The notes beneath the pieces were generated by a model. That model searched no databases and was not told where the DNA came from. It worked only from the letters and a program-made list of their open reading frames with translations. Made by a program: the position numbers and the translations under genes. A stretch of DNA of 64,000 bases from an uncultured Desulfobacterales bacterium (GTDB lineage Bacteria; Desulfobacterota; Desulfobacteria; Desulfobacterales; SpSt-501): positions 218,538-282,537 of the forward strand of contig CALIUY010000012.1 of NCBI GenBank assembly GCA_938048455.1, in the 5' to 3' direction. Numbering within the stretch: the stretch's first letter is position 1; each line of letters starts with the position of its first letter. This document shows positions 12,439 to 33,862 of this stretch, piece by piece.

Positions 12439-13851
12439 ATGAACAAACGATTCGTCTTGTGCTGTACCCTCGGCCTTTTCGCCGTCAATGCCTGGGCGGC
12501 GGACGAGCCGCCCTCCGTCGCCTCGAACCGCGCGGCGATCGAGCTCGTTCAGGTCCATGCCGACTATGTCTGGACGCTCATCGCCGCCGCGCTCGTCTTT
12601 TTCATGCAGGCCGGTTTCGCGATGGTCGAGACCGGCTTCACGCGGGCCAAGAACGCGATCAATATCCTGATGAAGAACCTCATGGATTTCTCGGCGGGAA
12701 CCCTCGCCTTCTGGGCGGTCGGCTTCGGGCTGATGTTCGGGGAGAGCCCCTTCGGCTGGTTCGGAACGAGCGGCTTTTTCTTAAGCGGGTTCACGCCCGG
12801 CGGAGATCCCTGGGTGCTCGCCTTCTGGATGTTTCAAGTGGTCTTCGCCGCCACCGCGGCGACCATCGTCTCGGGGGCGATGGCCGAACGCACGAAATTC
12901 GCGGGCTACCTGATTTACAGCGTCGTCGTAAGCGCGGTCATCTACCCCGTCTTCGGCTCCTGGGCCTGGGGCGGCCTTCACCACGGCAAGGGATGGTTGG
13001 AGTCGCTCGGCTTCATCGACTTCGCCGGCTCGACGGTGGTCCACTCCGTCGGCGGCTGGGCGGCGCTCGCCGGGACGCTCGTGCTGGGGCCGCGGCTGGG
13101 CAAGTACCTGCCGGACGGACGGGTGAAACCCATCCTGGGGCACAACATGCCGCTCGCCGCACTCGGGGTGTTCGTTCTCTGGTTCGGCTGGTTCGGCTTC
13201 AACCCGGGCTCCACCACGGCGGCGAAGAAAGAGATCGCCTTGATCTTCGTCAACACCAACCTCGCCGCCGCCGCCGGGTCGCTGCTGGCGATGGCGACCT
13301 CATGGATCCGTTTCGGCAAGCCGGAGGTCGGCATGACCCTGAACGGCGCGCTGGCCGGGCTGGTGGCCATTACGAGCCCCTGCGCCACGGTCACGCCGGC
13401 AAGCGCCGCCTTCATCGGCGCCGCGGCCGGGGTGCTGGTCGTGTTTTCGGTGCTCTTCTTCGAGCACCGCAAGGTGGACGACCCCGTGGGGGCGATTTCC
13501 GTCCATGCCGTGAACGGGGCTTGGGGGACGTTGGCCGCGGGCCTTTTTCACATGGAGGGATTTGATCTCGGCCGGCTCGGGGTCCAGGCCTTGGGGGTGG
13601 CGGCCTGTTTCCTGTGGACGTTTCCCACGGCCTGGCTGCTGTTCAAAGCCATCGCCGCCACGGTCGGCTTGCGCGTCTCGCCCGAAGAGGAACTCGAGGG
13701 GCTCGACCTGAGCGAACACGCCGGCATCGCCTACCCCGATTTCGAGGCCTTGGCGCACGGCGGCGGAATCGGGGCCCCTGCCCCGGCCGCGGCGGGGTTT
13801 CCTGTCGGTGCGGCATGCCCGCCGCAGATCGCACCCGTTCGGAAAGCCTGA
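12439..13851 (+). CDS. amt: Ammonium transporter
   Basis: This is an Amt/MEP/Rh channel for ammonium uptake (470 residues). A cleavable signal peptide (residues 1-21, ending AWAADE) precedes eleven predicted membrane segments, as in AmtB. Family motifs include FFMQAGFAMVETGFTRAKN, ISVHAVNGAWGTLA with the second pore His, DFAGSTVVHSVGGWAALAG with the first pore His, and FGWFGFNPGST. The C-terminal tail includes the usual GLDLSEHAGIAYPDF followed by an extra 35-residue Ala/Pro-rich extension ending with one Cys. The start was chosen by AAGGAGAGG before the ATG. No glnK gene follows, which is unusual for Amt operons. Confidence 0.95.
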   Translation: MNKRFVLCCTLGLFAVNAWAADEPPSVASNRAAIELVQVHADYVWTLIAAALVFFMQAGFAMVETGFTRAKNAINILMKNLMDFSAGTLAFWAVGFGLMFGESPFGWFGTSGFFLSGFTPGGDPWVLAFWMFQVVFAATAATIVSGAMAERTKFAGYLIYSVVVSAVIYPVFGSWAWGGLHHGKGWLESLGFIDFAGSTVVHSVGGWAALAGTLVLGPRLGKYLPDGRVKPILGHNMPLAALGVFVLWFGWFGFNPGSTTAAKKEIALIFVNTNLAAAAGSLLAMATSWIRFGKPEVGMTLNGALAGLVAITSPCATVTPASAAFIGAAAGVLVVFSVLFFEHRKVDDPVGAISVHAVNGAWGTLAAGLFHMEGFDLGRLGVQALGVAACFLWTFPTAWLLFKAIAATVGLRVSPEEELEGLDLSEHAGIAYPDFEALAHGGGIGAPAPAAAGFPVGAACPPQIAPVRKA

Positions 13852-14005
13852 GCAGGAGGCGCAGAGACGGACCGCCTCGATCTCGCGCTGCCTTAGGAAT
13901 TCGTCCTTTACGGCCTGGTCGGCTACCAGGGGGTCGAAGGCGACCGAAGCACGGGCGACGGCGCCGGCGAAAACGGTGGCGACGGCTACGACGACATTCA
14001 CTAAA

Positions 14006-23627: not shown

Positions 23628-24062
23628 CTAACCCGTCACGCGCATGGCGGCCTGGGCGTCGCCTGCGGCCGGGCGGTAGTCGCGGTGGAAGAGATCGCTC
23701 GAGATGAGGTAGTCGGCGGTCGCGCGGTTGCAGGCGATGGCGACGTTATAGAGAACCGCCATGCGCAGGAGGGCCTTCACGTCCACGTCGTGCGGGTGGG
23801 CGGTCATCGGGTCCCAGAAAAAGATCAGGATGTCGAGCTCGCCTCCGGCGATCATCGCCCCGAGCTGCTGGTCGCCGCCGAGGGGTCCGCTCTTCAGCAG
23901 GCGGATCTCGAGATCGCAGGCCTCGGACAGGATCCTGCCCGTGGTGCCCGTCGCCCAGAGCGCATGGCGCGAGAGGGTCACACGGTTGAAGCGCACCCAC
24001 TCCAAAAGGTCTTTCTTGCGCTCGTCGTGGGCGACGAGCCCGATGCGTCGTCGGGAACTCAT
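23628..24062 (-). CDS. mgsA: Methylglyoxal synthase
   Basis: MgsA (144 residues) converts dihydroxyacetone phosphate to methylglyoxal and phosphate, a glycolytic bypass under phosphate limitation. The motifs IGLVAHDERKKDLLEWV, ATGTTGRIL, KSGPLGGDQQLGAMI with the catalytic Asp, and FFWDPMTAHPHDVDVKAL are all present. Length is normal. GGAGGAGGG lies 3 bases before the ATG. It is divergent from the hydrolase gene across a 256-base spacer (24063-24318) in which I found no clear site. Confidence 0.96.
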   Translation of the reverse strand: MSSRRRIGLVAHDERKKDLLEWVRFNRVTLSRHALWATGTTGRILSEACDLEIRLLKSGPLGGDQQLGAMIAGGELDILIFFWDPMTAHPHDVDVKALLRMAVLYNVAIACNRATADYLISSDLFHRDYRPAAGDAQAAMRVTG

Positions 24063-24318: not shown

Positions 24319-25161
24319 ATGCTTTCGGCGCTGAAAATCCTGTTGCTCCTTTACCTGGGCTGGTGCTTCGTTCTCTTTGCGCTGCAGCGCCAGGTGCTCT
24401 TTCCCCGCTGGATGATCCCCGCGCCCGAAGAGCCTGCGTTCGAAGGGCGGGACTTCGAGCGCTGGTGGCTTTCCGCCTCCTTCGGCCGCGTCGAGGCCTG
24501 GTACCTTCCTCCGCCGGCGAACCCGGAGCCCTCCCCGGCGATCCTTTTCGCCCACGGCAACGGCGAGCTGATCGACTTCTGGCCCGAAACGCTGGGCCGA
24601 TTCCGGGAGCTCGGCCTTGCGCTTCTGCTCGTCGAGTACCCCGGCTACGGGCGCTCGGAGGGTTCCCCCTCGCAGCGACGGATCGCCGAGGCCTTCGATC
24701 TCGCCTACGACCGGCTCGTCTCCCGGCCCGAGGTCGACCGCGGCCGCATCGTTTTTCTGGGCCGCTCGCTCGGCGGCGGGGCGGTCTGCGATCTTTCTTT
24801 GCGGCGTCCCGCCGCGGGGCTCATCCTGCTCTCCAGCTTCACGAGCGTGAAGGCCTTCGCCGCGCGCTATTTCGCCCCGCCGTTTCTCCTCCGCGACCCC
24901 TTCGACAACCTCGCCGCGCTCGAGCGCTACTCCGGGCCGGTGCTCCTGATGCACGGAAGACACGACGAGATCGTCCCGTTCGGCCATGCGGAAAAACTTC
25001 GGAACGTCTCCCGCCGCGCAAGGCTCATCGCCTACGAGGCGGGGCACAACGACTGCCCGCCCGAGGGAGAACGCTTTTTTCGGGACGTCGAACGTTTCCT
25101 CCGGGAGGAAGGCCTCCTGAGGGGGGAAGGCCCTCCGCGGGAAGGCGCGAGCGATCCATGA
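24319..25161 (+). CDS. Membrane-anchored alpha/beta hydrolase
   Basis: This 280-residue protein starts with one membrane anchor (LKILLLLYLGWCFVLFALQ) and has an alpha/beta-hydrolase fold of the YfhR/ABHD13 type: ILFAHGNGELIDFWP, VEYPGYGRSEG, nucleophile elbow GRSLGGG (Ser about residue 154), HGRHDEIVP with the acid, and AGHNDCP with the catalytic His. It probably acts as a serine hydrolase on the periplasmic or cytoplasmic membrane face; substrate unknown. The ATG at 24319 is chosen because the anchor then starts the protein; the upstream extension is non-hydrophobic and improbable. It overlaps the next gene by four bases. Confidence 0.85.
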   Translation: MLSALKILLLLYLGWCFVLFALQRQVLFPRWMIPAPEEPAFEGRDFERWWLSASFGRVEAWYLPPPANPEPSPAILFAHGNGELIDFWPETLGRFRELGLALLLVEYPGYGRSEGSPSQRRIAEAFDLAYDRLVSRPEVDRGRIVFLGRSLGGGAVCDLSLRRPAAGLILLSSFTSVKAFAARYFAPPFLLRDPFDNLAALERYSGPVLLMHGRHDEIVPFGHAEKLRNVSRRARLIAYEAGHNDCPPEGERFFRDVERFLREEGLLRGEGPPREGASDP

Positions 25162-25805
25162 GCGGCACAGAATTCGGCCGCCGGCCGGCGGCGGACACCA
25201 CCGTCTTTCTTGTGCGCCACGGGCATGTGCACAATCCGGGGCGCATCCTCTACGGCCGGTTGCCGCGATTTTCCTTGAGCGCCCGCGGCCGGGAAGAGGC
25301 GCTCCGGGCGGCGCGGCTGCTGGCCGCGATCCCCCTGCAGGCCCTCTACGCGAGCCCGCGGCTGAGGGCACGGCAGACGGCACGTGCGATCGCCGCCCCG
25401 CAGGCGGGCCTTGCCGTCCGCATCTCGCGGCTGATCGACGAGGTCTACACGCGTTTCGAAGGCGAGCCGCTGGAGATCCTCAGCGTGCGCCGCGACGATT
25501 TTTATACCGGCGAGGGTCCGCCTTACGAGCAGCCGCAGGATATCGTGCGGCGCATGGTGCGTTTCCTCGGGCTCCTGCGGCGGCGGCACGAAGGAGGGGC
25601 GGTGGCCGCCGTCACCCACGGGGACGTCATCGCCTTCACCCTGCTCTGGGCGATGGGAGAGGAGCTTCACCCGCAGAACAAGGCCCGTCTTCGTCTTGCC
25701 GGCGCGAGCGGCTACCCCCCGACCGGATCGGTCGTGCGCCTGATCCTTCCTGCCGCGGGTCCGCCGCGGGTTTCGCAGATCGCCTTTCTCGCAGAGCGAC
25801 CCTGA
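25158..25805 (+). CDS. Histidine phosphatase family protein
   Basis: This 215-residue protein belongs to the phosphoglycerate mutase/histidine phosphatase superfamily: the catalytic loop FLVRHGHVHNPGRILYGR near residue 18, YASPRLRARQTA near 65, and AVTHGDVIAF near 155 with the second His. LYGRLPRFSLSARG resembles cobalamin-phosphatase-like and 2-phosphoglycerate-mutase-like members, so the substrate is uncertain. Translationally coupled to the hydrolase gene through ATGA. Its stop is 24 bases from the stop of the convergent PIG-L gene. Confidence 0.85.
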   Translation: MSGTEFGRRPAADTTVFLVRHGHVHNPGRILYGRLPRFSLSARGREEALRAARLLAAIPLQALYASPRLRARQTARAIAAPQAGLAVRISRLIDEVYTRFEGEPLEILSVRRDDFYTGEGPPYEQPQDIVRRMVRFLGLLRRRHEGGAVAAVTHGDVIAFTLLWAMGEELHPQNKARLRLAGASGYPPTGSVVRLILPAAGPPRVSQIAFLAERP

Positions 25806-25829: not shown

Positions 25830-26525
25830 TCAGGGCGGGGCTTCCACGCGGTGAAACCCCTCGGCCAACCCGAAGGACTCGCCGGCCGCCGTCTCGCGGC
25901 AGCGCTCGCGCAGCCAGGCTACGGGGTCGCCGCGGGGGAAATCGCGAAGCTGGCTTTGGTGGCAGCGCAGGGCGGCGATCTTGAGATCGAAGGTTTCCGT
26001 GATGTCGACCCGGCAGTTGATCTCCTCGGACCCCCAGCAATAGATCTCGCGCACTTTGTGCGGAGCGAGCCCCTCGGCCAACAGCTCGGGGAAGGATAGC
26101 CGGTCGCGGGCGCAGGGGAAGACGGCGTCCAGGACGACCTGGCCGACGATGCGGTGGTCGCGGTGCCAGAGGTAGCGGCGGTAGGGGTCCGAGGTGAGAA
26201 CGACGCGCGGGCGGTAGCGACGGATCTGGCGCACGAGCAGCCGCCGGAAATCGGCGCAGTCCTCCAGGCCCTGGTCGGGAAGTCGCAGGAAAACCGCCTC
26301 GCGCACGCCGAGCAGAGCGCAGGCCGCGCGCTGTTCCTCCTCGCGGATCGCGGCCAGGGCCTCGGGCGTAAGCTCCGGGTCGCTCGTTCCCTTCTCGCCG
26401 CTCGTGCAGAGCACATAGACCACGGATTTCCCCTCGCGGATCCAACGGGCGATCGTGCCGGCGGCCCCGAACTCGCAGTCGTCCGGGTGGGCGGCGATGG
26501 CCAGCACGTCGGCGGGGGCGCTCAC
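25830..26525 (-). CDS. PIG-L family deacetylase (MshB/BshB-like)
   Basis: This 231-residue zinc-dependent N-deacetylase has AAHPDDCEFGAAGT (His13, Asp15, Asp16) and WHRDHR (about residues 120-125), the metal-binding and catalytic motifs of PIG-L/LmbE enzymes. Family members remove acetyl groups from GlcNAc conjugates, including MshB in mycothiol and BshB in bacillithiol synthesis. The GTG start at 26525 follows AAGGA by 7 bases. It is the last gene of a four-gene coupled operon and lies 11 bases after the GT4 gene, whose product could make its substrate. The substrate is inferred, not shown. Confidence 0.85.
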   Translation of the reverse strand: MSAPADVLAIAAHPDDCEFGAAGTIARWIREGKSVVYVLCTSGEKGTSDPELTPEALAAIREEEQRAACALLGVREAVFLRLPDQGLEDCADFRRLLVRQIRRYRPRVVLTSDPYRRYLWHRDHRIVGQVVLDAVFPCARDRLSFPELLAEGLAPHKVREIYCWGSEEINCRVDITETFDLKIAALRCHQSQLRDFPRGDPVAWLRERCRETAAGESFGLAEGFHRVEAPP

Positions 26526-26536
26526 GGGGAGTTCCT

Positions 26537-27835
26537 TCAGCGGTGGCCCCGGCCGAGGCCGCAGCCGCAGCAGAGGCTTGTCCCGGCCGCGGCGGTCGAG
26601 GTGTTTTCCCGGCCGGAGAGCAGCGCCCGGTAGACCGCCAGCGCCCCCGCGGCCGTCCGTTCCCAGCCGTAGGCCGCGATGGAGCGGCGGAGCGACTCCG
26701 CCATGAACGGCGAGTGCAGGTGGGTATCGAGGAGATCGGCGATCGCCCGGGCGAGGTCGGCGGGGGCGAAGCCGGAGGCAAGCCGGCCCCGTTTGCCGTC
26801 GCGGAGGAGAAACTCCGCGGCCCCGACCGGGGTGGCGGCGACCGGCGTGCCGCAGGCGAGCGCCTCGAGGACCACGAGGCCGAAGCTCTCGTAGGAGGAG
26901 GGCAAGGCCAGGAGATCGGCCGCGCTGTAAAAGAGGGGAAGCGCCTCCGGCGTGACCCGGCCGCAGAAGGTGACCCGGTTTTCGAGACCGCGGGCCCGCA
27001 TGTGGGCGGCGAGCAGGCGCAGCCGCGGGTCGTCTGCACCGTCGCCGCCCACGACGAGAAGGCGGAGTCGCGCGCGCCCCCGCAGATGGGCGAGGGCGGA
27101 CATCAGACGCTTCAAGCCCTTTTCCGGGACGACCCTTCCCACGTAGAGCACGACTTCGGAAGCTTGCGGAATGCCGAGCCGCCGTCTCGCCTCCCGCCGG
27201 GGGATCGGCCGGAAGCCCTCGAAGTCGACGCCCCAGGGGACGACGGCCGTGCGGTCGGACGCCGTGGGGCAGAACCGCAGCAAGATCTCTTTTTCGCGCG
27301 GCGAAGGCACGATCAGCCCGTCGCAGGCGGCGGCGAGACGGCGCTCGGTCGCGAGGCGGACGGAGTGCTCCTGCCCGCCTGCCCGGAAGCGCCGTTTGCC
27401 GGCGGCGAGCGTGTGCAAGGTCAGGACATGCGGGACGCCCCAGGCGCGGCAGGCGAGCTCGGCCGTGCGTCCCGAGGCCCAGTAGTGGCTGTGGACGAGG
27501 TCGTAGCGGGCTGCCGCCCGCCGGCGAAGGCGCTCGATGGTTCCCAGGATCTCCTCCGCCTGGCGATAAAGGTCGAGGGCGGAGCTGGAAATCCCGGCGG
27601 CCACGGGGAAGAGGCGGACGTTCGGCGCCAGGGGGAGCGGTTCCTCCCCATGGGCATCCCCGGGCGGGGGAGCGAAGAGATCCACGCGATGACCGGCTCG
27701 ACCCAGTTCGCGGGCGAGCGCGCGCAGGCAGACGCTCAGCCCCCCGGTGCGGCTCGCCCCGAGGGGACCGAGTGGGCCGGAGTGAAGCGAGATCATCGCG
27801 ATCGAAAGGGCGGCGGAGGGCGCGGGCGGATTCAT
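26537..27835 (-). CDS. GT4 glycosyltransferase, MshA-like
   Basis: This 432-residue GT-B enzyme has an N-terminal domain with IAMISLHSGPLGPLG and a GG loop at residues 31-32, YDLVHSHYW (111-119), and TLHTLAAGKRRF (139-150), then a C-terminal domain with VVPWGVDFEGFRP, YVGRVVPEKGL and the E-x7-E motif at Glu316/Glu324. The N-terminal pattern and HSHYW with HTLAA are shared with MshA, the GlcNAc transferase that starts mycothiol synthesis, and with sucrose-phosphate-synthase-like GT4 enzymes. The last 25 residues include CCGC, which is unusual. It lies between the acyltransferase and deacetylase genes. Confidence 0.85.
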   Translation of the reverse strand: MNPPAPSAALSIAMISLHSGPLGPLGASRTGGLSVCLRALARELGRAGHRVDLFAPPPGDAHGEEPLPLAPNVRLFPVAAGISSSALDLYRQAEEILGTIERLRRRAAARYDLVHSHYWASGRTAELACRAWGVPHVLTLHTLAAGKRRFRAGGQEHSVRLATERRLAAACDGLIVPSPREKEILLRFCPTASDRTAVVPWGVDFEGFRPIPRREARRRLGIPQASEVVLYVGRVVPEKGLKRLMSALAHLRGRARLRLLVVGGDGADDPRLRLLAAHMRARGLENRVTFCGRVTPEALPLFYSAADLLALPSSYESFGLVVLEALACGTPVAATPVGAAEFLLRDGKRGRLASGFAPADLARAIADLLDTHLHSPFMAESLRRSIAAYGWERTAAGALAVYRALLSGRENTSTAAAGTSLCCGCGLGRGHR

Positions 27836-27838
27836 GTC

Positions 27839-28795
27839 TCAGGCTCCGAGTTCGATGCGGCAACCGAAAAGAGGCACAGGCTTCCCGCCCAGCCGGCGTT
27901 TGTAGGGTTCCTTTCCCTGGAGAAAATCGTAGCGGGAAAGCCCACGGGCGAGGGCATCGCGGATGCTCAGGATCTTGCACGCCATTCCCACGCCCAAGGG
28001 GGAGAACGCCGTATCGTAGGCGCTGTTGTAGAGGTAGCGGGTCCCGCGATAGTCAAAGCAGAATACCGCGGCGGCCGGAGTCCCGTCAACGCGGACCAGC
28101 CCCAGCCGGAACTCCGGCAGCCGCAGCGCGAGCAGCCGAAAGAACGTTTGGGTCTTCTCCGTAAGGAAGGCCGCCTTCTCCGGGCGACCGCGGCGGAAGA
28201 GCCGGAAGAAAATCTCGACGGCGGCCGCGGCTTCTTCTTTCCCCGCGTGCAGTTCGAAGGGGGCGAAGCCGCGTTCTTCCAAGCGCCGGAGCTTGCGGCG
28301 CACCTCGTGGCGCTCTTTGGGGGAGAGCCGCGCGAGGTAGTCCTCCCAGCGGGCGGGGAGGTCCATGGCGAAGAGCAGGGCGCGCTCGCGGATTTCCACT
28401 TCGAGGCCCGCCTCTTGGGCCGCGGGGACAAGCGCGGTGAGCACCGCGGCGTCGGGCCGCAGCGCGAAGAGATCGAGGCCCCCGATCCCCTCGGCCGCCA
28501 GCGTTTCGAGAACGGACCGGGCGAAGAGCCGCTCGCGACCGGGTGCGGGCAGCAGGTCGAGGTGGTCGCATACCTCCGGGTCGCCGGCCAGAAGGCCCCG
28601 CCCCCCTTCGATCCGCAGGGCCGCGGCACCGAGAAGCTCCTTGCCGGCGTAGAAGGAGCGCACCCAGAAATCCTCTTTCGGGGAAAAGACATCGCGCCAG
28701 CTCGCCATCCATGCCGGAAGCGTGAACGGGCAGGGAAAGGGGAGGGGAAGTCGGGAGAGCCCCTCCAGGCTTTCGGCGCGGGCGCGGAGGATCAC
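27839..28795 (-). CDS. GNAT/FemAB-type acyltransferase (CelD/BcsL domain)
   Basis: This 318-residue protein carries an acetyltransferase domain of the CelD/BcsL (Acetyltransf_6) type: RLSPKERHEVRRKLRRLEE near residue 155, AAVFCFDYRGTRYLYNSAYD near 250, then SPLGVGMACKILSIRDAL and RYDFLQGKEPYKRRLGG, the usual family ending. The fold is two GNAT domains, as in FemABX aminoacyltransferases. The GTG start at 28795 overlaps the upstream TGA (GTGA), so translation is coupled. In this operon it could acylate an amino sugar, a step analogous to MshD, but the substrate is inference. Confidence 0.8.
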   Translation of the reverse strand: MILRARAESLEGLSRLPLPFPCPFTLPAWMASWRDVFSPKEDFWVRSFYAGKELLGAAALRIEGGRGLLAGDPEVCDHLDLLPAPGRERLFARSVLETLAAEGIGGLDLFALRPDAAVLTALVPAAQEAGLEVEIRERALLFAMDLPARWEDYLARLSPKERHEVRRKLRRLEERGFAPFELHAGKEEAAAAVEIFFRLFRRGRPEKAAFLTEKTQTFFRLLALRLPEFRLGLVRVDGTPAAAVFCFDYRGTRYLYNSAYDTAFSPLGVGMACKILSIRDALARGLSRYDFLQGKEPYKRRLGGKPVPLFGCRIELGA

Positions 28796-30048
28796 CGGCC
28801 TTCTCCCTCGGCGGGGCGCCACCGCGGCCCCTGCGGGGTGTCTTCGACCACGATGCCCTGGAGGCCGAGCAGTTCCCGCAGGAGATCGGCTTCGGCCCAC
28901 CGGCGGTTGCGGCGCATCTCCTCGCGCAACGCGAGCGTCCGCTCCACCAGCGCTGCGATCGCCCCCGGCCGGGTCCGGGGGCAGGCGCTGCAGGCGGCCC
29001 CGAGAAGGGCGATCCATTCCCGCAGAAGCTCACGGCCCTGAGCGAGCGTCTCGGGGTTTTCGATGTCCTGGAAGGCGGACCAGAGCAAGGCGTCGAGCTC
29101 CAGCACCGCCGCCGCCATGGCTCCGGGGTCGGTGGCGTCCTGCCCTCTCTGGAAGGAGGCGGCAAGGCCGTGCACGCGGGACCAGAACGGCTCCGCCGCG
29201 GCTTGCCGTCCTGCGGGGGGCCGCGGGGGCGAGGGGGCGTCGGTCCGCTCTGCACCGGCCTTATCTCCCAGAGCGGTCAGCGGGACCCGCGCCCCCCTTT
29301 CCATACGGAGCTCGGTGCCCCTGCGCCGCAGCGTGATCCCTCCGGTACCCCGGACGCGGGCCTCGCCGGCGGCGAGATCGAGGATACAGGCCGTGTGCTC
29401 ATCCAGACCCAGCACGGCGCAAGAGGCCGGGAGCATTTCCTCGAGGACGCGGAAGCGAGGCTCGCCCATGAAACAGAAGCGCGTGTCGTGGGTTCCGCCC
29501 TCGGCGTTGTTCCAGTGCGGCACGACGACAAGCGGAAGATCGAAGCGGCCGAGGAGATCCAGGCCCGGCTCCCAGCGCAGGTCCTCCCCGACCTTGTAGA
29601 TCTCGTAGACGGGAAGCGTGAAGCGGCCCACGGTGAGGGCCGCCGCGCTCGCCGCGACGAGACAGGCGCCGGCCGCGATCCGGCGGGCGAGAATGTCGGC
29701 AACGGGAGTTTCGCGCCAGTGGCGCAGGGCATAGGTCGGGCTTCCGGGACCGATCAGAATGTAGTCGGCCCCGCGCAGCACGGCGAGCGCCTGCTCCCCT
29801 TCGGGGGAAGAAGGAAAAGCGCGCCTCTTCCAGGAGACGGTCGTGAGCTCGCAGCCGACCCGGCGGCGGAAGTACTGCCGCGCGCGGTCGGCGATCTGGT
29901 CGGCGTTCAGCTGGAAGCCGGCCGGTGTGTCGAGGAACACCGCTTTGGCTTGAGGGCCCAGGCGGGAAAGCCTCTCCTTGTGCACCTCCACCATGGTGGC
30001 GGTGAGCTCCCCCGAGCCCATAAGCACGATCGATCCCGCGGCCGGCAT
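28792..30048 (-). CDS. S51-like (class I GAT fold) domain fused to CysRS C-terminal domain
   Basis: This 418-residue protein has two parts. Residues 1-250 look like the peptidase S51/cyanophycinase-like class I amidotransferase fold: IVLMGSGELTATMV at the start, a candidate nucleophile Ser134 in VAASAAALTV, and VVPHWNNAEGG near 175. After a Pro-rich linker (about 262-286), residues 290-418 are helical and end in WAEADLLRELLGLQGIVVED and TPQGPRWR, the signature end of cysteinyl-tRNA synthetase. The catalytic ATP-binding HIGH/KMSKS domain of CysRS is absent. It is the first gene of the operon; AGGAATCGAGG precedes the ATG. The function is unknown; a cysteine- or tRNA-related role is inference. 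Confidence 0.75.
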   Translation of the reverse strand: MPAAGSIVLMGSGELTATMVEVHKERLSRLGPQAKAVFLDTPAGFQLNADQIADRARQYFRRRVGCELTTVSWKRRAFPSSPEGEQALAVLRGADYILIGPGSPTYALRHWRETPVADILARRIAAGACLVAASAAALTVGRFTLPVYEIYKVGEDLRWEPGLDLLGRFDLPLVVVPHWNNAEGGTHDTRFCFMGEPRFRVLEEMLPASCAVLGLDEHTACILDLAAGEARVRGTGGITLRRRGTELRMERGARVPLTALGDKAGAERTDAPSPPRPPAGRQAAAEPFWSRVHGLAASFQRGQDATDPGAMAAAVLELDALLWSAFQDIENPETLAQGRELLREWIALLGAACSACPRTRPGAIAALVERTLALREEMRRNRRWAEADLLRELLGLQGIVVEDTPQGPRWRPAEGEGR

Positions 30049-30152
30049 CCTCGATTCCTGTTTTCCGGGAAAAAGGGTTACGACCGGCGGATGATAACCT
30101 GCGGCCGGCCGAAGTCAATTCCGCACTCGGCGGCGATCCGCGGCGGTTTGCC

Positions 30153-30182
30153 TTGACACTTCGCTTCTTCGCCGTCTAATAT
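30153..30182 (+). promoter_or_regulatory. Sigma-70 promoter for the TAXI TRAP operon
   Basis: Consensus TTGACA (30153-30158) and TAATAT (30177-30182) are 18 bases apart, 82 bases before the ATG of the solute receptor gene. This is among the best sigma-70 matches in the window. Confidence 0.65.
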
Positions 30183-30264
30183 GACTTTTCCTCAAATGCG
30201 TCACCCAGCGGTCCGAGGGCTACTCGGACCTCCGCCAACCCAACCCCCAAAAAGGAGGTGCTTC

Positions 30265-31212
30265 ATGTCGCGACGGTTTGCAATCGGTCTTCTGGTTCTG
30301 GCGCTGGTCGGAACGGTGGCGGCGGCGCAGGCCGCCGAAAAACTGGTTCTGGCGACCGGCGGAACGGCGGGCACCTACTATCCCTTCGGCGGCGCGATGG
30401 CCAAGATCTGGAGCGCGAAGATCAAGGACATGAGCGTGACCGCGCAAACCAGCGGCGCTTCGGCGGAGAACGTGCGGCTGATCAACAAAAAGGAGGTGGA
30501 GCTCGCGCTGGTCCAGAGCGACACGCTCGATTTCGCCTTCAACGCCAAAGAGGCTTTCAAGGAACCCCTCAAGGGCATGAGTGCGATCGCCGTGCTCTAC
30601 CCCGAGATCATCCAGGTCGTCGTCCGCGCCGACAGCCCGATCAAGAGCTTCGCCGACCTCAAGGGGAAAAAGGTGGGCGTGGGGGCCCCGGGCAGCGGCA
30701 CCGAGGCGAACTTCCGGCAGCTCATGGACATCTACGGTCTCAAGAAGGAGGACGTGAACCCGCAGTACCTCTCCTTCGCCGAGAGCGCGGACGCCTTCAA
30801 GGACAAACACATCGACGCCTTCATCGTGACGGCGGGCATCCCCAATGCCGGCATCATGGACGTTTCCACGCAGCATGCGATCCGCATCCTCGACATCAAG
30901 GGGCCCGAAGCCGAAAAACTCGTCGCCAAATATCCTTTCCTCGCTCCGGCGAAGGTCCCGTCCGGCACCTATAAGGGTCAGGACGCCGAGGTGAACACGG
31001 TGGCGGTCAATGCGGTGTTGATCGCCGGCAATCAGCTGAAAGAAGACGTCGTCTACAACCTGACCAAGGCGCTTTTCGAAAATCAGGTCGAACTGGCCGC
31101 GGCGCATGCCAAGGGCAAGGAGCTTGACCTGAACAAGGCGGTCAAGGGCGTTTCGATCCCCTTCCACCCCGGGGCCGTGAAATACTACAAGGAAAAGGGC
31201 GCGATGAAGTAG
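30265..31212 (+). CDS. TRAP transporter solute receptor, TAXI family
   Basis: This 315-residue periplasmic binding protein has a signal peptide (to about residue 26, ending QAAEK) and the TAXI opening LVLATGGTAGTYYPFGGAMA. Later family motifs are VGAPGSGTEANFRQLMD, DAFIVTAGIPNAGIMD and NTVAVNAVLI. TAXI receptors deliver carboxylates such as glutamate or 2-oxo-dicarboxylates to fused DctQM permeases; the ligand here is unknown. The ATG at 30265 follows AAAGGAGGTG, one of the strongest ribosome-binding sites in the window. The permease and DUF1850 gene follow. Confidence 0.93.
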   Translation: MSRRFAIGLLVLALVGTVAAAQAAEKLVLATGGTAGTYYPFGGAMAKIWSAKIKDMSVTAQTSGASAENVRLINKKEVELALVQSDTLDFAFNAKEAFKEPLKGMSAIAVLYPEIIQVVVRADSPIKSFADLKGKKVGVGAPGSGTEANFRQLMDIYGLKKEDVNPQYLSFAESADAFKDKHIDAFIVTAGIPNAGIMDVSTQHAIRILDIKGPEAEKLVAKYPFLAPAKVPSGTYKGQDAEVNTVAVNAVLIAGNQLKEDVVYNLTKALFENQVELAAAHAKGKELDLNKAVKGVSIPFHPGAVKYYKEKGAMK

Positions 31213-31355
31213 CCCGCGCCGTCACCGGCAAAACCGAAGAAAAGGGCCGAAGCGGGCATGAGCCGATTTCCTTGCGAAAGCCGCCCCTTCGGCCTTTTCT
31301 TTCCGGTTTCGTCGCCGGTGCCGTGAGGCTTTCCCGCGGGGAAGGGCGCGGCGCA

Positions 31356-31853
31356 TTGAAACGGATTTTTCCGCTTGCCGCGGCCATGGCGGCCGCCTTC
31401 CTCTCCGCCTGCGCCGCAGGAGGGGTTCTCGAGGTCGTTCGGGAACCGGAAGGGGTGCGGGTCTTCTGCCGCACGCTGCCGACCGGCGAGGAAGTGGTTC
31501 TCGCCTACGTGCACTCGGTGAACCGCAGGCCCGTCTATGACACGCTGCGGATCGAAGAGGGGGAACTGGTGATCGTGAAGTCCCGCTTCGACGCCTTCGG
31601 CGCGGGCATGCCGGACGGATCGACGGACGAAGGCACGCTCCGGGTGCTCGAAGGCGGGATTCTCGAATGGACGGTCAATCGGCCGGTCGGCGAAGTCACC
31701 CTGCGGGTGGGGCGGATGGCCGACCACCGGCTCCTCTTCCGGGAAGAAGTGGTTTTCCTGGATCGCCTGGCCCCTCCCGGAGCGGCACTGACCTTGCGTC
31801 CCGGGAAGGCGGAGATTTCCGATTTGCTCTGGAAAGGCAGGTGCTCCCCGTGA
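31356..31853 (+). CDS. DUF1850 lipoprotein-like TRAP accessory protein
   Basis: DUF1850 proteins are small companions of TAXI-type TRAP transporters. YVHSVNRRPVYDTLRIEEGEL and FDAFGAGMPDG are the family motifs. A TTG start at 31356 is proposed because it places a signal sequence (IFPLAAAMAAAFLSAC) at the N-terminus with a possible lipobox LSAC; GTG at 31323 and TTG at 31272 are alternatives, none with a strong RBS. That gives 165 residues. Its stop overlaps the permease start (GTGA). Role unknown; association with uptake is established by recurrent gene order. Confidence 0.8.
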   Translation: MKRIFPLAAAMAAAFLSACAAGGVLEVVREPEGVRVFCRTLPTGEEVVLAYVHSVNRRPVYDTLRIEEGELVIVKSRFDAFGAGMPDGSTDEGTLRVLEGGILEWTVNRPVGEVTLRVGRMADHRLLFREEVVFLDRLAPPGAALTLRPGKAEISDLLWKGRCSP

Positions 31854-33862
31854 GTGCGAAAGAGAAAGAGCAGGACCCGAAGGCGGTCCCGGCCGCCGGG
31901 ACGGCGCCCGAGGCGGAGGAAGTCGTTTCCCAAGAGGAGATCGAGCGCATCCTGAAAAAGGTCGACCGCGAGTCGGCCGTGCGCGATCTCTCCGGTTTTT
32001 CGAAGTGGCTCGTTTATGGAATTGCCGTCTGCTGGTCGATCTTTCAAATTTACACCGCCGCCTTCGGCCTGCTCCCGGCGCAGCTGCAGCGCTCGGTCCA
32101 CCTCGCCTTCGCGCTGACCCTGACCTATCTCCTCTATCCGGCCCGCCGGGAGGGAGGAGACGGTCGCCTGCGCTGGCACCACTGGGCGCTCACGGCGCTC
32201 GCCTGCTACATCGGTCTCTATATGGCCTTGAACTACATGCGGATCATGATGGCCGGCGGGGACTATACGCGTCTGGATTATACTGCCGGGGTTCTCGGCG
32301 TGCTCCTGACGCTCGAGGCCGCGCGGCGGGTGGTGGGGTTGCCGATCGTCTGCCTCGCCTCCTTCTTCATCCTCTACACCTACTTCGGCAATTACTTCCC
32401 GGGCTTTCTCGCCCACCGCGGCTACTCGATCGAACGCATCGCCTCGCACATGTACCTCACCACCGAGGGGATCATCGGCATCCCGCTCGGAGTCTCGGCG
32501 ACCTTCATCTTTCTTTTCATCCTTTTCGGAGCGTTCGCCGAAAAGTCCGGCCTGGGCCAGCTGTTCATCGACATCGCCAATGCCGTGGCGGGCTGGGCCT
32601 CGGGCGGCCCGGCGAAGATGGCGATCGTGACCAGCGCCCTCGAGGGTACGGTTTCGGGCAGCTCGGTGGCCAACACGGTGCAGTCGGGCAGCCTCACGAT
32701 CCCGATGATGAAACGCCTCGGCTACCGCCCCGAGTTCGCCGCCGCCGTCGAAGCCTCCTCCTCGACCGGGGGCCAGATCATGCCGCCCATCATGGGGGCG
32801 GCGGCCTTCATCATGGCCGAGTTCCTGAACATCCCCTACATCCAGATCGCCAAGGCGGCCGCGATCCCCGCCTGCCTTTACTTTTTCGGCGTCTTCATGG
32901 AAGTTCATTTCGAGGCCAAGCGCTGCAACCTGCGGGGATTGAACCGCGACGAGTTGCCCCGTTTCTGGCAAGTCGTGAAGGATCGCGGGCATCTCATCGC
33001 GCCGCTCTTCGTCATCATCTACTTTCTCACCTCGGGCTTCACGCCCATCTACGCCGCCCTGCTGGGTCTGATCACCGCCGTGATCGCGGGCCTGATCAAG
33101 AAGGCGACCCGGATGAGCCCCCAGGACATCGTCGATGTGCTCGCCGCGGGAGCCCGCGGCGCGATCGGGGTGGCGCTTGCCTGCGCTTCGGCCGGCATCA
33201 TCATCGGCGCGGTCACCCTGACCGGGATCGGCCTCAAGCTCGGCAACGGCCTGGTCGAGCTGGCCGGCGGAAGCCTCCCCCTCACGCTCGTCTTCACCAT
33301 GATCACCTCGATCATCCTCGGGATGGGTGTGCCGACGACGGCGAACTACATCATCACCTCGACCATCGCCGCCCCGGCCCTCACCCAGCTCGGCGTGCAT
33401 CCGCTCGCCGCGCACATGTTCGTGTTCTACTTCGGGATCGTGGCCGACATCACCCCGCCGGTCGCGCTTGCGGCCTACGCGGGCTCCGGTATCGCCAAAT
33501 CCAATCCCTTCAGAACCGGCGTCACCTCGACCAAACTCGCGATCGGGGCCTTTATCACCCCGTACATTTTCGTTTACAACAACGCGATGCTCTGGGTGGA
33601 CACGACCTGGTACGAGATGATCCACACGCTGCTTACCGCCTGCGGGGGGATGACGGCGATCGGCGCCTCCATGATCGGCTTTTTCTGGGCGCCGATGAAC
33701 TGGGCGGAGCGGGTTCTCTTTTTCGCGGGGGGGCTCACCCTGATCCACCCCGATGTCCGCACCGACGTGCTCGGCCTCGTCGTGCTGGCCGTGCTGTTGG
33801 TCTATCAGCGCTACAAGAAGCGCAAGGGGATCGTCAGCCGCGCGACCGTCTCCGATGCCTGA
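31850..33862 (+). CDS. TRAP transporter fused permease (DctQM type)
   Basis: This 670-residue membrane protein joins the small (DctQ-like, four segments in about residues 45-160) and large (DctM-like, about 170-640) permease subunits, as is usual in TAXI systems. DctM motifs include GTVSGSSVANTVQSGSLTIP, SSSTGGQIMPPIMGAAAFIM, and VPTTANYIITSTIAAPAL, plus DITPPVALAAYAGSGIA. It drives sodium-coupled uptake of the ligand captured by the upstream receptor. The GTG start overlaps the DUF1850 stop. The N-terminal 40 residues are an acidic cytoplasmic extension. Confidence 0.93.
   Translation: MSAKEKEQDPKAVPAAGTAPEAEEVVSQEEIERILKKVDRESAVRDLSGFSKWLVYGIAVCWSIFQIYTAAFGLLPAQLQRSVHLAFALTLTYLLYPARREGGDGRLRWHHWALTALACYIGLYMALNYMRIMMAGGDYTRLDYTAGVLGVLLTLEAARRVVGLPIVCLASFFILYTYFGNYFPGFLAHRGYSIERIASHMYLTTEGIIGIPLGVSATFIFLFILFGAFAEKSGLGQLFIDIANAVAGWASGGPAKMAIVTSALEGTVSGSSVANTVQSGSLTIPMMKRLGYRPEFAAAVEASSSTGGQIMPPIMGAAAFIMAEFLNIPYIQIAKAAAIPACLYFFGVFMEVHFEAKRCNLRGLNRDELPRFWQVVKDRGHLIAPLFVIIYFLTSGFTPIYAALLGLITAVIAGLIKKATRMSPQDIVDVLAAGARGAIGVALACASAGIIIGAVTLTGIGLKLGNGLVELAGGSLPLTLVFTMITSIILGMGVPTTANYIITSTIAAPALTQLGVHPLAAHMFVFYFGIVADITPPVALAAYAGSGIAKSNPFRTGVTSTKLAIGAFITPYIFVYNNAMLWVDTTWYEMIHTLLTACGGMTAIGASMIGFFWAPMNWAERVLFFAGGLTLIHPDVRTDVLGLVVLAVLLVYQRYKKRKGIVSRATVSDA

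Follow-up and report, generated by a model that had tools for sequence, protein, structure and literature searches.

We describe a candidate biosynthetic operon found in a window of 64,000 nucleotides (the whole stretch of DNA analyzed here) from an uncultured Desulfobacterales bacterium. According to the open reading frame (ORF) calls and their translations, four minus-strand genes running from 30048 down to 25830 form one tight unit, and we propose, with a probability of roughly one half (about 0.52), that this operon makes a mycothiol-like low-molecular-weight thiol to which cysteine is added in a tRNA-dependent manner. A sequence-only reading of the same DNA had already assigned four coupled genes to a mycothiol- or bacillithiol-like logic; by the evidence given below it was right in outline but wrong about the second gene and about the reason why the first one carries a part of cysteinyl-tRNA synthetase (CysRS). 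The genes are, in their order:

28792..30048, minus strand: gene 1, peptidase S51 domain fused to a CysRS helical bundle and anticodon-binding tail (Pfam, profile search, AlphaFold2 (AF2) fold)
27839..28795, minus strand: gene 2, Fem-type double-GNAT protein with GTG start, proposed Cys-tRNA-dependent cysteinyl transferase (PF13480, AF2 fold)
26537..27835, minus strand: gene 3, MshA-like glycosyltransferase of family 4 (GT4), proposed transfer of N-acetylglucosamine (GlcNAc) to inositol phosphate (TIGR03449, PDB match, residues)
25830..26525, minus strand: gene 4, PIG-L deacetylase, proposed de-N-acetylation of GlcNAc-inositol (PF02585, NCBIfam)

In the pathway that we propose, inositol-3-phosphate would be supplied by the inositol-phosphate synthase (MIPS/INO1) of most operon-positive genomes, the MshA-like GT4 would add GlcNAc to it, a histidine phosphatase or a haloacid dehalogenase-type (HAD) phosphatase would remove the phosphate and the PIG-L protein would deacetylate the product to glucosaminyl-inositol (GlcN-inositol). 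Gene 2 would then move cysteine from Cys-tRNA(Cys) onto the amine of GlcN-inositol, with the CysRS tail of gene 1 recruiting tRNA(Cys) and its S51 serine domain either acting on the cysteinyl ester (by transfer, release or editing) or trimming the product. What was computed is the gene set, its conservation, the domains, the retained residues and the co-occurring genes; from these we infer each of the reactions, the involvement of Cys-tRNA and the identity of the product. The whole chain stands at about even odds, GlcN-inositol as a product alone stands higher, and the widest form of the proposal, that anaerobic Desulfobacterota and Nitrospirae-labelled bacteria make a so far unseen cysteinyl-glucosamine-inositol thiol with cysteine from Cys-tRNA(Cys), a Fem-type ligase and an S51/CysRS-tail partner, is tentative and somewhat less probable than its opposite.

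A conserved gene order

The four genes are confirmed by Pfam domains over cut-off, and their tight coupling is seen in the spacing. In the window the stop codon of gene 1 overlaps the GTG start of gene 2 (GTGA), gene 2 ends 3 nt before the ATG of the GT4 gene and about 11 nt lie between the latter and the likely GTG start of the PIG-L gene, the frame of which is open to 26540 and beyond.

Within the class, 22 of 147 genomes, counting that of the window, and 17 of 82 genera have a match to gene 1; the one in G012 is cut at a contig end and that in G027 has an internal TGA. For the comparison we analyzed 80 of 101 confirmed related loci (L023–L102) from GTDB genomes, with L standing for locus and G for genome. 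They are mostly metagenome-assembled genomes (MAGs) of Desulfobacterota, and the record names of the carriers include Desulfobacterota/Deltaproteobacteria or their members, Nitrospirae/Nitrospiraceae/Thermodesulfovibrionia, Syntrophomonadaceae and single cases of Bacillota and Proteobacteria. The best match of gene 1 (77% identity) is found in a MAG called Desulfatibacillum sp. (L023), and a named strain, Desulfatitalea alkaliphila M08but (L102), is also a carrier.

A search for a conserved neighbourhood, as suggested together with the sequence-only reading, turned out positive. Using tblastn across the 80 loci, gene 2 was found in 63, the GT4 gene in 62 and the PIG-L gene in 46 of them. Genes 1–3 occur together in 60 loci, in 57 of them on one strand and in the order of the window (exceptions L040, L063 and L081), and all four genes are present in 44 loci, 42 of which show the window order. 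Because of these numbers the recurrence of the gene set is not chance. Of the 17 loci lacking a match to gene 2, 15 were followed to their genomes, 14 of which were examined; 12 of these carry gene 2 at some place, 10 of them with a close GT4 (E 1e-70 or better) on the same contig and no more than about 1 kb from gene 2. Counts of other gene clusters given below are approximate, as ORFs were called mechanically; many contigs are also short.

Residues were compared in alignments of the window with 72 of 73 references for the fusion (L035 left out, contig edge), 57 of 59 for gene 2 (L025 and L029 left out, long starts) and 55 of 55 for the GT4, the 57 rows of the GT4 residue check coming from a separate extraction. 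The fusion rows of L024, L039, L052 and L083 were set aside since their extraction carried a stop.

Two candidate links to aminoacyl-tRNA

Gene 2 contains a PF13480 domain (Acetyltransf_6, 99 bits), and neither its profile against PDB sequences nor a search against NCBIfam at E 0.01 gave a match. Its AF2 model (pLDDT 95.4) has a predicted double-GNAT fold of the Fem type. The best fold matches are the aminoacyl-tRNA-dependent peptide synthases Sbb17 and Sba18 (9wqw/9wqy, Z 21.5), both with entries solved with streptothrisamine, a compound that holds an aminosugar, and they are followed by FemX (Z 21.3), FemA (Z 21.0) and MprF/PGS-type enzymes (Z 17–19); the top 21 rows (Z 17.2–21.5) all belong to these three groups, Fem, Sbb17/Sba18 and MprF/PGS-type. 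The sequence-only reading had named a GNAT/FemAB acyltransferase, of which the double-GNAT protein of Fem type is retained by predicted fold. The MshD-like role was rejected as first choice, because the fold ranks with the Fem enzymes and well above MshD (2c27, Z 13.8). The basic residues K160, R162, R166, R167, K168, R170 and R171 of one helix are each kept in 54–58 of 58 rows, and K299 (57 of 58 rows) stands at a place that resembles the catalytic Lys305 of FemXWv in a comparison at the level of motifs. In the biosynthesis of BD-12, Orf11 converts streptothrisamine into glycylthricin using Gly-tRNA(Gly) (PMC12945691). Based on the model we propose that gene 2 may transfer cysteine from Cys-tRNA(Cys).

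Gene 1 combines two domains. Residues of about 1–260 (window 30048–29269) match PF03575 Peptidase_S51 with 27.5 bits (cut-off 23.9) and the profile of 6nqc with E 4e-9, and residues of about 289–413 (window 29184–28810) match PF23493 CysS_C with 25.5 bits (cut-off 23) and residues 359–486 of the CysRS 8qhp with E 8e-10. In the AF2 model (pLDDT 84, pTM 0.63) residues 1–260 are matched by 6nqc with Z 25.5, and the predicted tail by residues 332–461 of the CysRS-tRNACys complex 1u0b_B with Z 8.6 and 24% identity over 117 residues. The sequence-only reading had recognized the CysRS-specific C-terminal domain and the missing catalytic domain of CysRS, which both hold, and left the N-terminal S51 domain unnamed; it is this domain that takes the place of the catalytic one, with the tRNA-reading tail being kept. 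The S51 residues S134, H178 and E217, assigned as a triad from motifs, are present in 73 of 73 rows, and the conserved motifs PVYEIYKVG and PHWNNAEGG are distinctive compared to other S51 proteins. Arg423, Arg427, Trp432 and Asp436 of CysRS are named as touching G34 of tRNA(Cys) in 1u0b (PMC12684709). Their equivalents in the fusion are R375 (73 of 73 rows), R379 (72 of 73), W384 (66 of 73, otherwise F or Y) and D388 (73 of 73); for the retention of all four we calculated p 0.0013, a figure that does not account for the conservation of these residues in CysRS as well.

Two neighbouring genes may hence point by unrelated routes to aminoacyl-tRNA, as judged from residues and models, and gene 1 would point specifically to tRNA(Cys). 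The replacement of the CysRS catalytic domain by S51 with the tRNA-reading tail kept suggests Cys-tRNA rather than an ATP-dependent ligase, and candidate roles of the S51 domain are cysteinyl transfer or release, editing, or an amidase function. A stand-alone S51-like gene (mostly about 230–280 aa, e.g. L025:9257-9943) lies upstream of the fusion in 24 of the 80 loci by cluster membership, and the window has none at that place.

The searches for BshC and MshC that had been suggested beforehand gave no conventional cysteine ligase. BshC was found in 0 of 80 genomes by a search that did detect it in the controls B. subtilis, Thermus composti and Deinobacterium, and the bacillithiol pathway was therefore rejected. 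An MshC orthologue was also rejected, as none of the 22 operon-positive genomes contains one over the cut-off, which was exceeded in 1 of 14 control genomes. It would still be conceivable, albeit rather unlikely, that a mycothiol-like thiol is made via a conventional ATP-dependent ligase encoded elsewhere, for example a CysRS paralogue, with gene 2 being an acyl-CoA-dependent MshD-like enzyme and the S51 fusion a Mca-like S-conjugate amidase. In favour of this, the fold of S51 enzymes is that of hydrolases, tandem GNATs including MshD are also among the structures that align with gene 2, and CysRS-type matches exist in all 44 genomes searched, often several per genome, in a list that includes cross-matches to other class I synthetases. 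However, a CysRS paralogue with KMSKS but without the C-terminal domain was detected in G095 and a match of similar score and frame in G004 (C61), thus in one positive and one negative genome of the 44. The long CysRS-type match (200–290 bits; the four that were read are cysteine synthase fusions) is present in 20 of 22 positive and 19 of 22 negative genomes and thus does not track the operon, and the cysteine synthase-CysRS fusion was rejected as a ligase candidate for being equally common in operon-negative genomes. Moreover, an amidase has no obvious need of a tail reading tRNA(Cys), and gene 2 ranks with the Fem enzymes. We prefer the transfer of cysteine from Cys-tRNA(Cys).

Several CysRS relatives were observed along the way. 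In related genomes a PALP cysteine synthase of about 765–790 aa is fused to a CysRS-like module (L107:261-2558, L115:1973-4264, L117:1666-4035); DALR and CysS_C domains were recognized in the L107 protein, and the copies read seem to have a degenerate KMSKS loop. CysRS-type matches of 200–290 bits, nearly all of them in long frames, occur in 39 of 44 genomes, irrespective of the operon. L114:1390-2691 encodes a CysRS paralogue of 433 aa with KMSKS, no CysS_C match and an MshC-like layout, which reaches 180 bits with the MshC model (cut-off 485), and the genome of the window has a CysRS-like fragment with an internal TGA (G000:C25:4947-5189).

Proposed sugar steps, possible redox partners and competing readings

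The GT4 domains of gene 3 reach Pfam scores of up to 125.9 bits, and among 46 matching NCBIfam families MshA (TIGR03449) is the best with 255.8 bits, followed by 116.2 bits for the next one and 80 for BshA. With the MshA model all 56 aligned members reach E 1e-10 or lower, the best value being 8e-110 compared to 3e-41 for any other family, and the nearest PDB chain is MshA from C. glutamicum (3c48/3c4q, 204 bits). The MshA-like assignment of the sequence-only reading is thus supported, and the motifs it had listed are present in the translations, HSHYW and HTLAA in that of gene 3, AHPDD and HRDH in that of gene 4. As the MshA residues that bind the inositol-phosphate acceptor we take K78, Y110, T134 and R154 together with N25, presumably as described in work on 3c4v. 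Equivalents of Y110, T134 and R154 are kept in 57 of 57 GT4 rows, and K78 is K or R in 52 of 57. The position of R154 aligns with Arg178 of sucrose-phosphate synthase in a register counted by hand from the alignment, and this arginine binds the phosphate of the acceptor (PMC7264703), which makes a phosphorylated acceptor likely. The PIG-L protein matches PF02585 with 116.2 bits.

Genes for GT4, PIG-L and FemAB-like PF13480 proteins are also common in polysaccharide loci, and the sequence-only reading had considered conservation inside such loci as an argument against its own proposal. In line with a polysaccharide or exopolysaccharide (EPS) modification cassette, 45 other NCBIfam glycosyltransferase families match the GT4, several EPS families being among the 25 listed, and an ATP-binding cassette (ABC)-ATPase cluster, a mix of unlike ATPases, is found in 13 of the 80 loci. 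Nevertheless, MshA outscores every EPS family among the matches listed, and neither a polymerase nor a flippase was seen by reading representatives of the clusters present in at least four loci, with a family search covering ten proteins from these loci and related genomes. Inositol-phosphate synthase and redox genes recur instead. A polysaccharide locus was therefore rejected as first choice and is very improbable.

The inositol-phosphate synthase (PF01658) supports the mycothiol-like thiol. It is present in 20 of 22 operon-positive and in 19 of 58 negative genomes (p 2.6e-6, Fisher test without correction for kinship, as for all such tests here), where the negative set consists of the 58 lowest-numbered of 125 genomes and is not a random draw. 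In 17 of the 80 loci a MIPS gene of one of two distinct subfamilies (clusters 12 and 24) is located no further than 2.7 kb from an operon gene, and in 15 of them the distance is at most 0.9 kb. For an example of cluster 12 the only NCBIfam match at E 1e-5 is mycothiol_INO1 with 403.6 bits (cut-off 638). MIPS of cluster 12 follows the PIG-L gene in the same direction in L094 and L101, as does the other type in L059, L066 and L067. The MIPS types were also split by E-value (18 of 22 versus 8 of 58), a visual division that does not count among the main evidence. For the phosphatase step the window itself offers a candidate:

25131..25805, plus strand: convergent histidine phosphatase, candidate for the phosphatase step with an inferred MshA2-like role (PF00300, 94.5 bits)

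In 16 of the 80 loci a histidine phosphatase is encoded no more than 2.2 kb from an operon gene, and in several of them it adjoins a same-strand inositol-phosphate synthase; at least one of the two phosphatase types, histidine or HAD, is found in 28 loci. Dehydrogenases of the Gfo/Idh/MocA family are present in 33 of 80 loci, mostly as a pair after the fusion (e.g. L025:11291-12943 and 12946-13968), and are matched under cut-off by inositol 2-dehydrogenase models, among others; one of them presumably has a ThuA-like N-terminal part, a label assigned by reading. As these optional genes vary, like the stand-alone S51 gene, the final molecule may differ among hosts.

In 7 loci a fusion of glutaredoxin and thioredoxin reductase (Grx-TrxR) is encoded at a distance of 0.8 to 8.8 kb from an operon gene. 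Matches to the first 100 residues of this fusion were obtained in 10 of 22 operon-positive and 0 of 58 negative genomes (p 3.9e-7), in open frames of 414–459 aa. The Grx part comes closest to mycoredoxin (82.8 bits against a cut-off of 89.5) and the reductase part to thioredoxin reductase (310.8 bits against 343.45). A metallo-hydrolase cluster is found in 12 of 80 loci, an example of which is GloB-like (81.7 bits, cut-off 200.8). The mycothiol logic suggested by the sequence-only reading gains support from the MshA-like GT4, the linked inositol-phosphate synthases, the mycoredoxin-like reductase and the searches that gave no BshC and no MshC over the cut-off; the role of gene 2 and the reason for the CysRS tail are read differently here.

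Several findings weigh against a tRNA-dependent mycothiol-like pathway. The fold similarity of gene 2, seen in a model, would not by itself show tRNA use, S51 domains are not part of the known thiol pathways and the CysRS tail superimposes on 1u0b with an rmsd of 13.4 over 117 residues, so its sub-domains are probably in another relative position. The GT4 score with MshA is below the curated cut-off of 462.5, N25 of MshA is Ser in 54 of 57 rows, and the GT4 of the window and its sister in L023 are among the five without an equivalent of K78. For the PIG-L protein all scores are below the curated cut-offs, with 114.7 bits for BshB1 (182.5), 81.5 for BshB2 (195.25) and 59.9 for MshB (224.35), and also for Mca (68.4 bits). 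No Grx-TrxR fusion match exists in 12 of the 22 positive genomes, and in the genome of the window itself (G000, 3.38 Mb, 96.5% complete) neither such a match nor PF01658 was found, perhaps through gaps of the MAG or uptake of inositol; in its relative from the same genus PF01658 is present and a Grx-TrxR match is not. Furthermore, a bshABC or gshAB set had been named as a finding that would speak against a novel thiol, and although BshC is missing from all 80 genomes, a strong gshB-like gene (>100 bits) is present in 7 of the 22 operon-positive genomes, to which this search was confined. Three of these seven are among the ten with Grx-TrxR, and with both genes together, in G137 about 2 kb apart, the reductase may serve glutathione there. 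The window's genome has no strong gshB-like gene, its weak ATP-grasp matches of 33.3 and 26.2 bits (cut-off 23) being far under E. coli-type scores, and gshA was not searched. Finally, the genomes behind L030 and L100 have the fusion and neither a gene-2 nor a close GT4 match.

These two genomes would agree with the fusion being a quality-control hydrolase for tRNA(Cys) and a chance neighbour of a sugar pathway, and a serine-hydrolase triad next to a tRNA-binding tail would suit a deacylase. Since genes 1 and 2 overlap in the window, and 57 of the 60 loci having all three keep fusion, gene 2 and GT4 in this order on one strand, this is the least probable of the explanations that we considered.

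A product other than a redox thiol, namely an aminoacylated GlcN-inositol serving as glycosylphosphatidylinositol (GPI)-like glycolipid head group, osmolyte or envelope decoration, is unlikely. A GT4 together with PIG-L is also the logic of GPI synthesis, MprF-type aminoacyl-tRNA enzymes act on lipids, the Gfo/Idh/MocA dehydrogenases suggest further sugar or inositol chemistry, and the highest scores of the PIG-L protein are those with BshB1, LnmX and diacetylchitobiose deacetylases and not the one with MshB. On the other hand the residues reading tRNA(Cys) are kept, the co-occurring reductase is mycoredoxin-like, a GloB-like metallo-hydrolase accompanies the operon in some loci and no gene for lipid synthesis or a flippase was seen among the cluster representatives read. 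The mycothiol-like thiol remains our preferred product.

As to the surroundings of the operon, a promoter-like site was noted upstream of gene 1:

30091..30118, minus strand: TTGACT-16-TATCAT, about 40 nt upstream of gene 1 (consensus match only)

It is one of three such sites in the region, compared to 0.1 expected from shuffles. A tRNA scan of the window found none. A methylglyoxal synthase (23628–24062, 200 bits) is encoded a few genes from the operon, and a link to a thiol-dependent glyoxalase is conceivable. Divergent to the operon and adjoining it (30181–33862) are a TAXI-type TRAP solute-binding protein, a DUF1850 protein and a large ORF read as a permease, clusters of all three recurring together in 4 of 80 loci.

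Comparison with known systems

Among the titles listed by searches of the licensed PMC subset, none describes this operon, a tRNA-dependent thiol or mycothiol genes in Desulfobacterota. The operon makes it testable which thiol, if any, buffers the redox state of anaerobic sulfate reducers and relatives without bacillithiol and often without strong glutathione genes. It would extend mycothiol-type chemistry beyond the Actinobacteria and would offer linked candidates for the GlcNAc-inositol-phosphate phosphatase step. If the tRNA reading is true, it would connect the translation apparatus with the synthesis of a redox cofactor, as a tRNA-dependent synthesis of a general redox thiol.

The closest known system is mycothiol biosynthesis (MshA, MshA2, MshB, MshC and MshD; Actinobacteria), with which the operon shares the MshA-like GT4, PIG-L, the co-occurring inositol-phosphate synthase and, in some hosts, a reductase nearest to mycoredoxin. 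It differs in having no MshC over the cut-off, a Fem-type protein at the place of MshC/MshD, the S51-CysRS-tail fusion and hosts outside the Actinobacteria, whereas mshA-D are described as found only in Actinobacteria (PMC6282198) and MshC as apparently working independently of tRNA (PMC2922099). Bacillithiol biosynthesis (BshA, BshB, BshC) likewise uses a GT4 and PIG-L before cysteine is placed on the glucosamine amine; here BshC is missing and the GT4 scores far lower with BshA (80 bits, cut-off 273.7) than with MshA. The Fem-type natural-product ligases (Orf11 of BD-12, PacB, VlmA, DhpH-C and Sbb17/Sba18) share with gene 2 the double-GNAT fold, as predicted for the latter, a near-invariant lysine at a comparable C-terminal place and the basic helix, but for gene 2 cysteine is the predicted amino acid and GlcN-inositol the predicted acceptor, and a separate CysRS-tail protein is encoded beside it. 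Cyanophycinase and dipeptidase E (S51) have the fold of the N-terminal domain of gene 1 and its Ser/His/Glu at the expected places, yet the fusion additionally carries the tRNA-binding tail of CysRS and its own two motifs. With cysteinyl-tRNA synthetase, in turn, gene 1 shares the helical bundle and the anticodon domain with the residues contacting G34, and it differs from it in that the catalytic Rossmann domain is replaced by the S51 domain.

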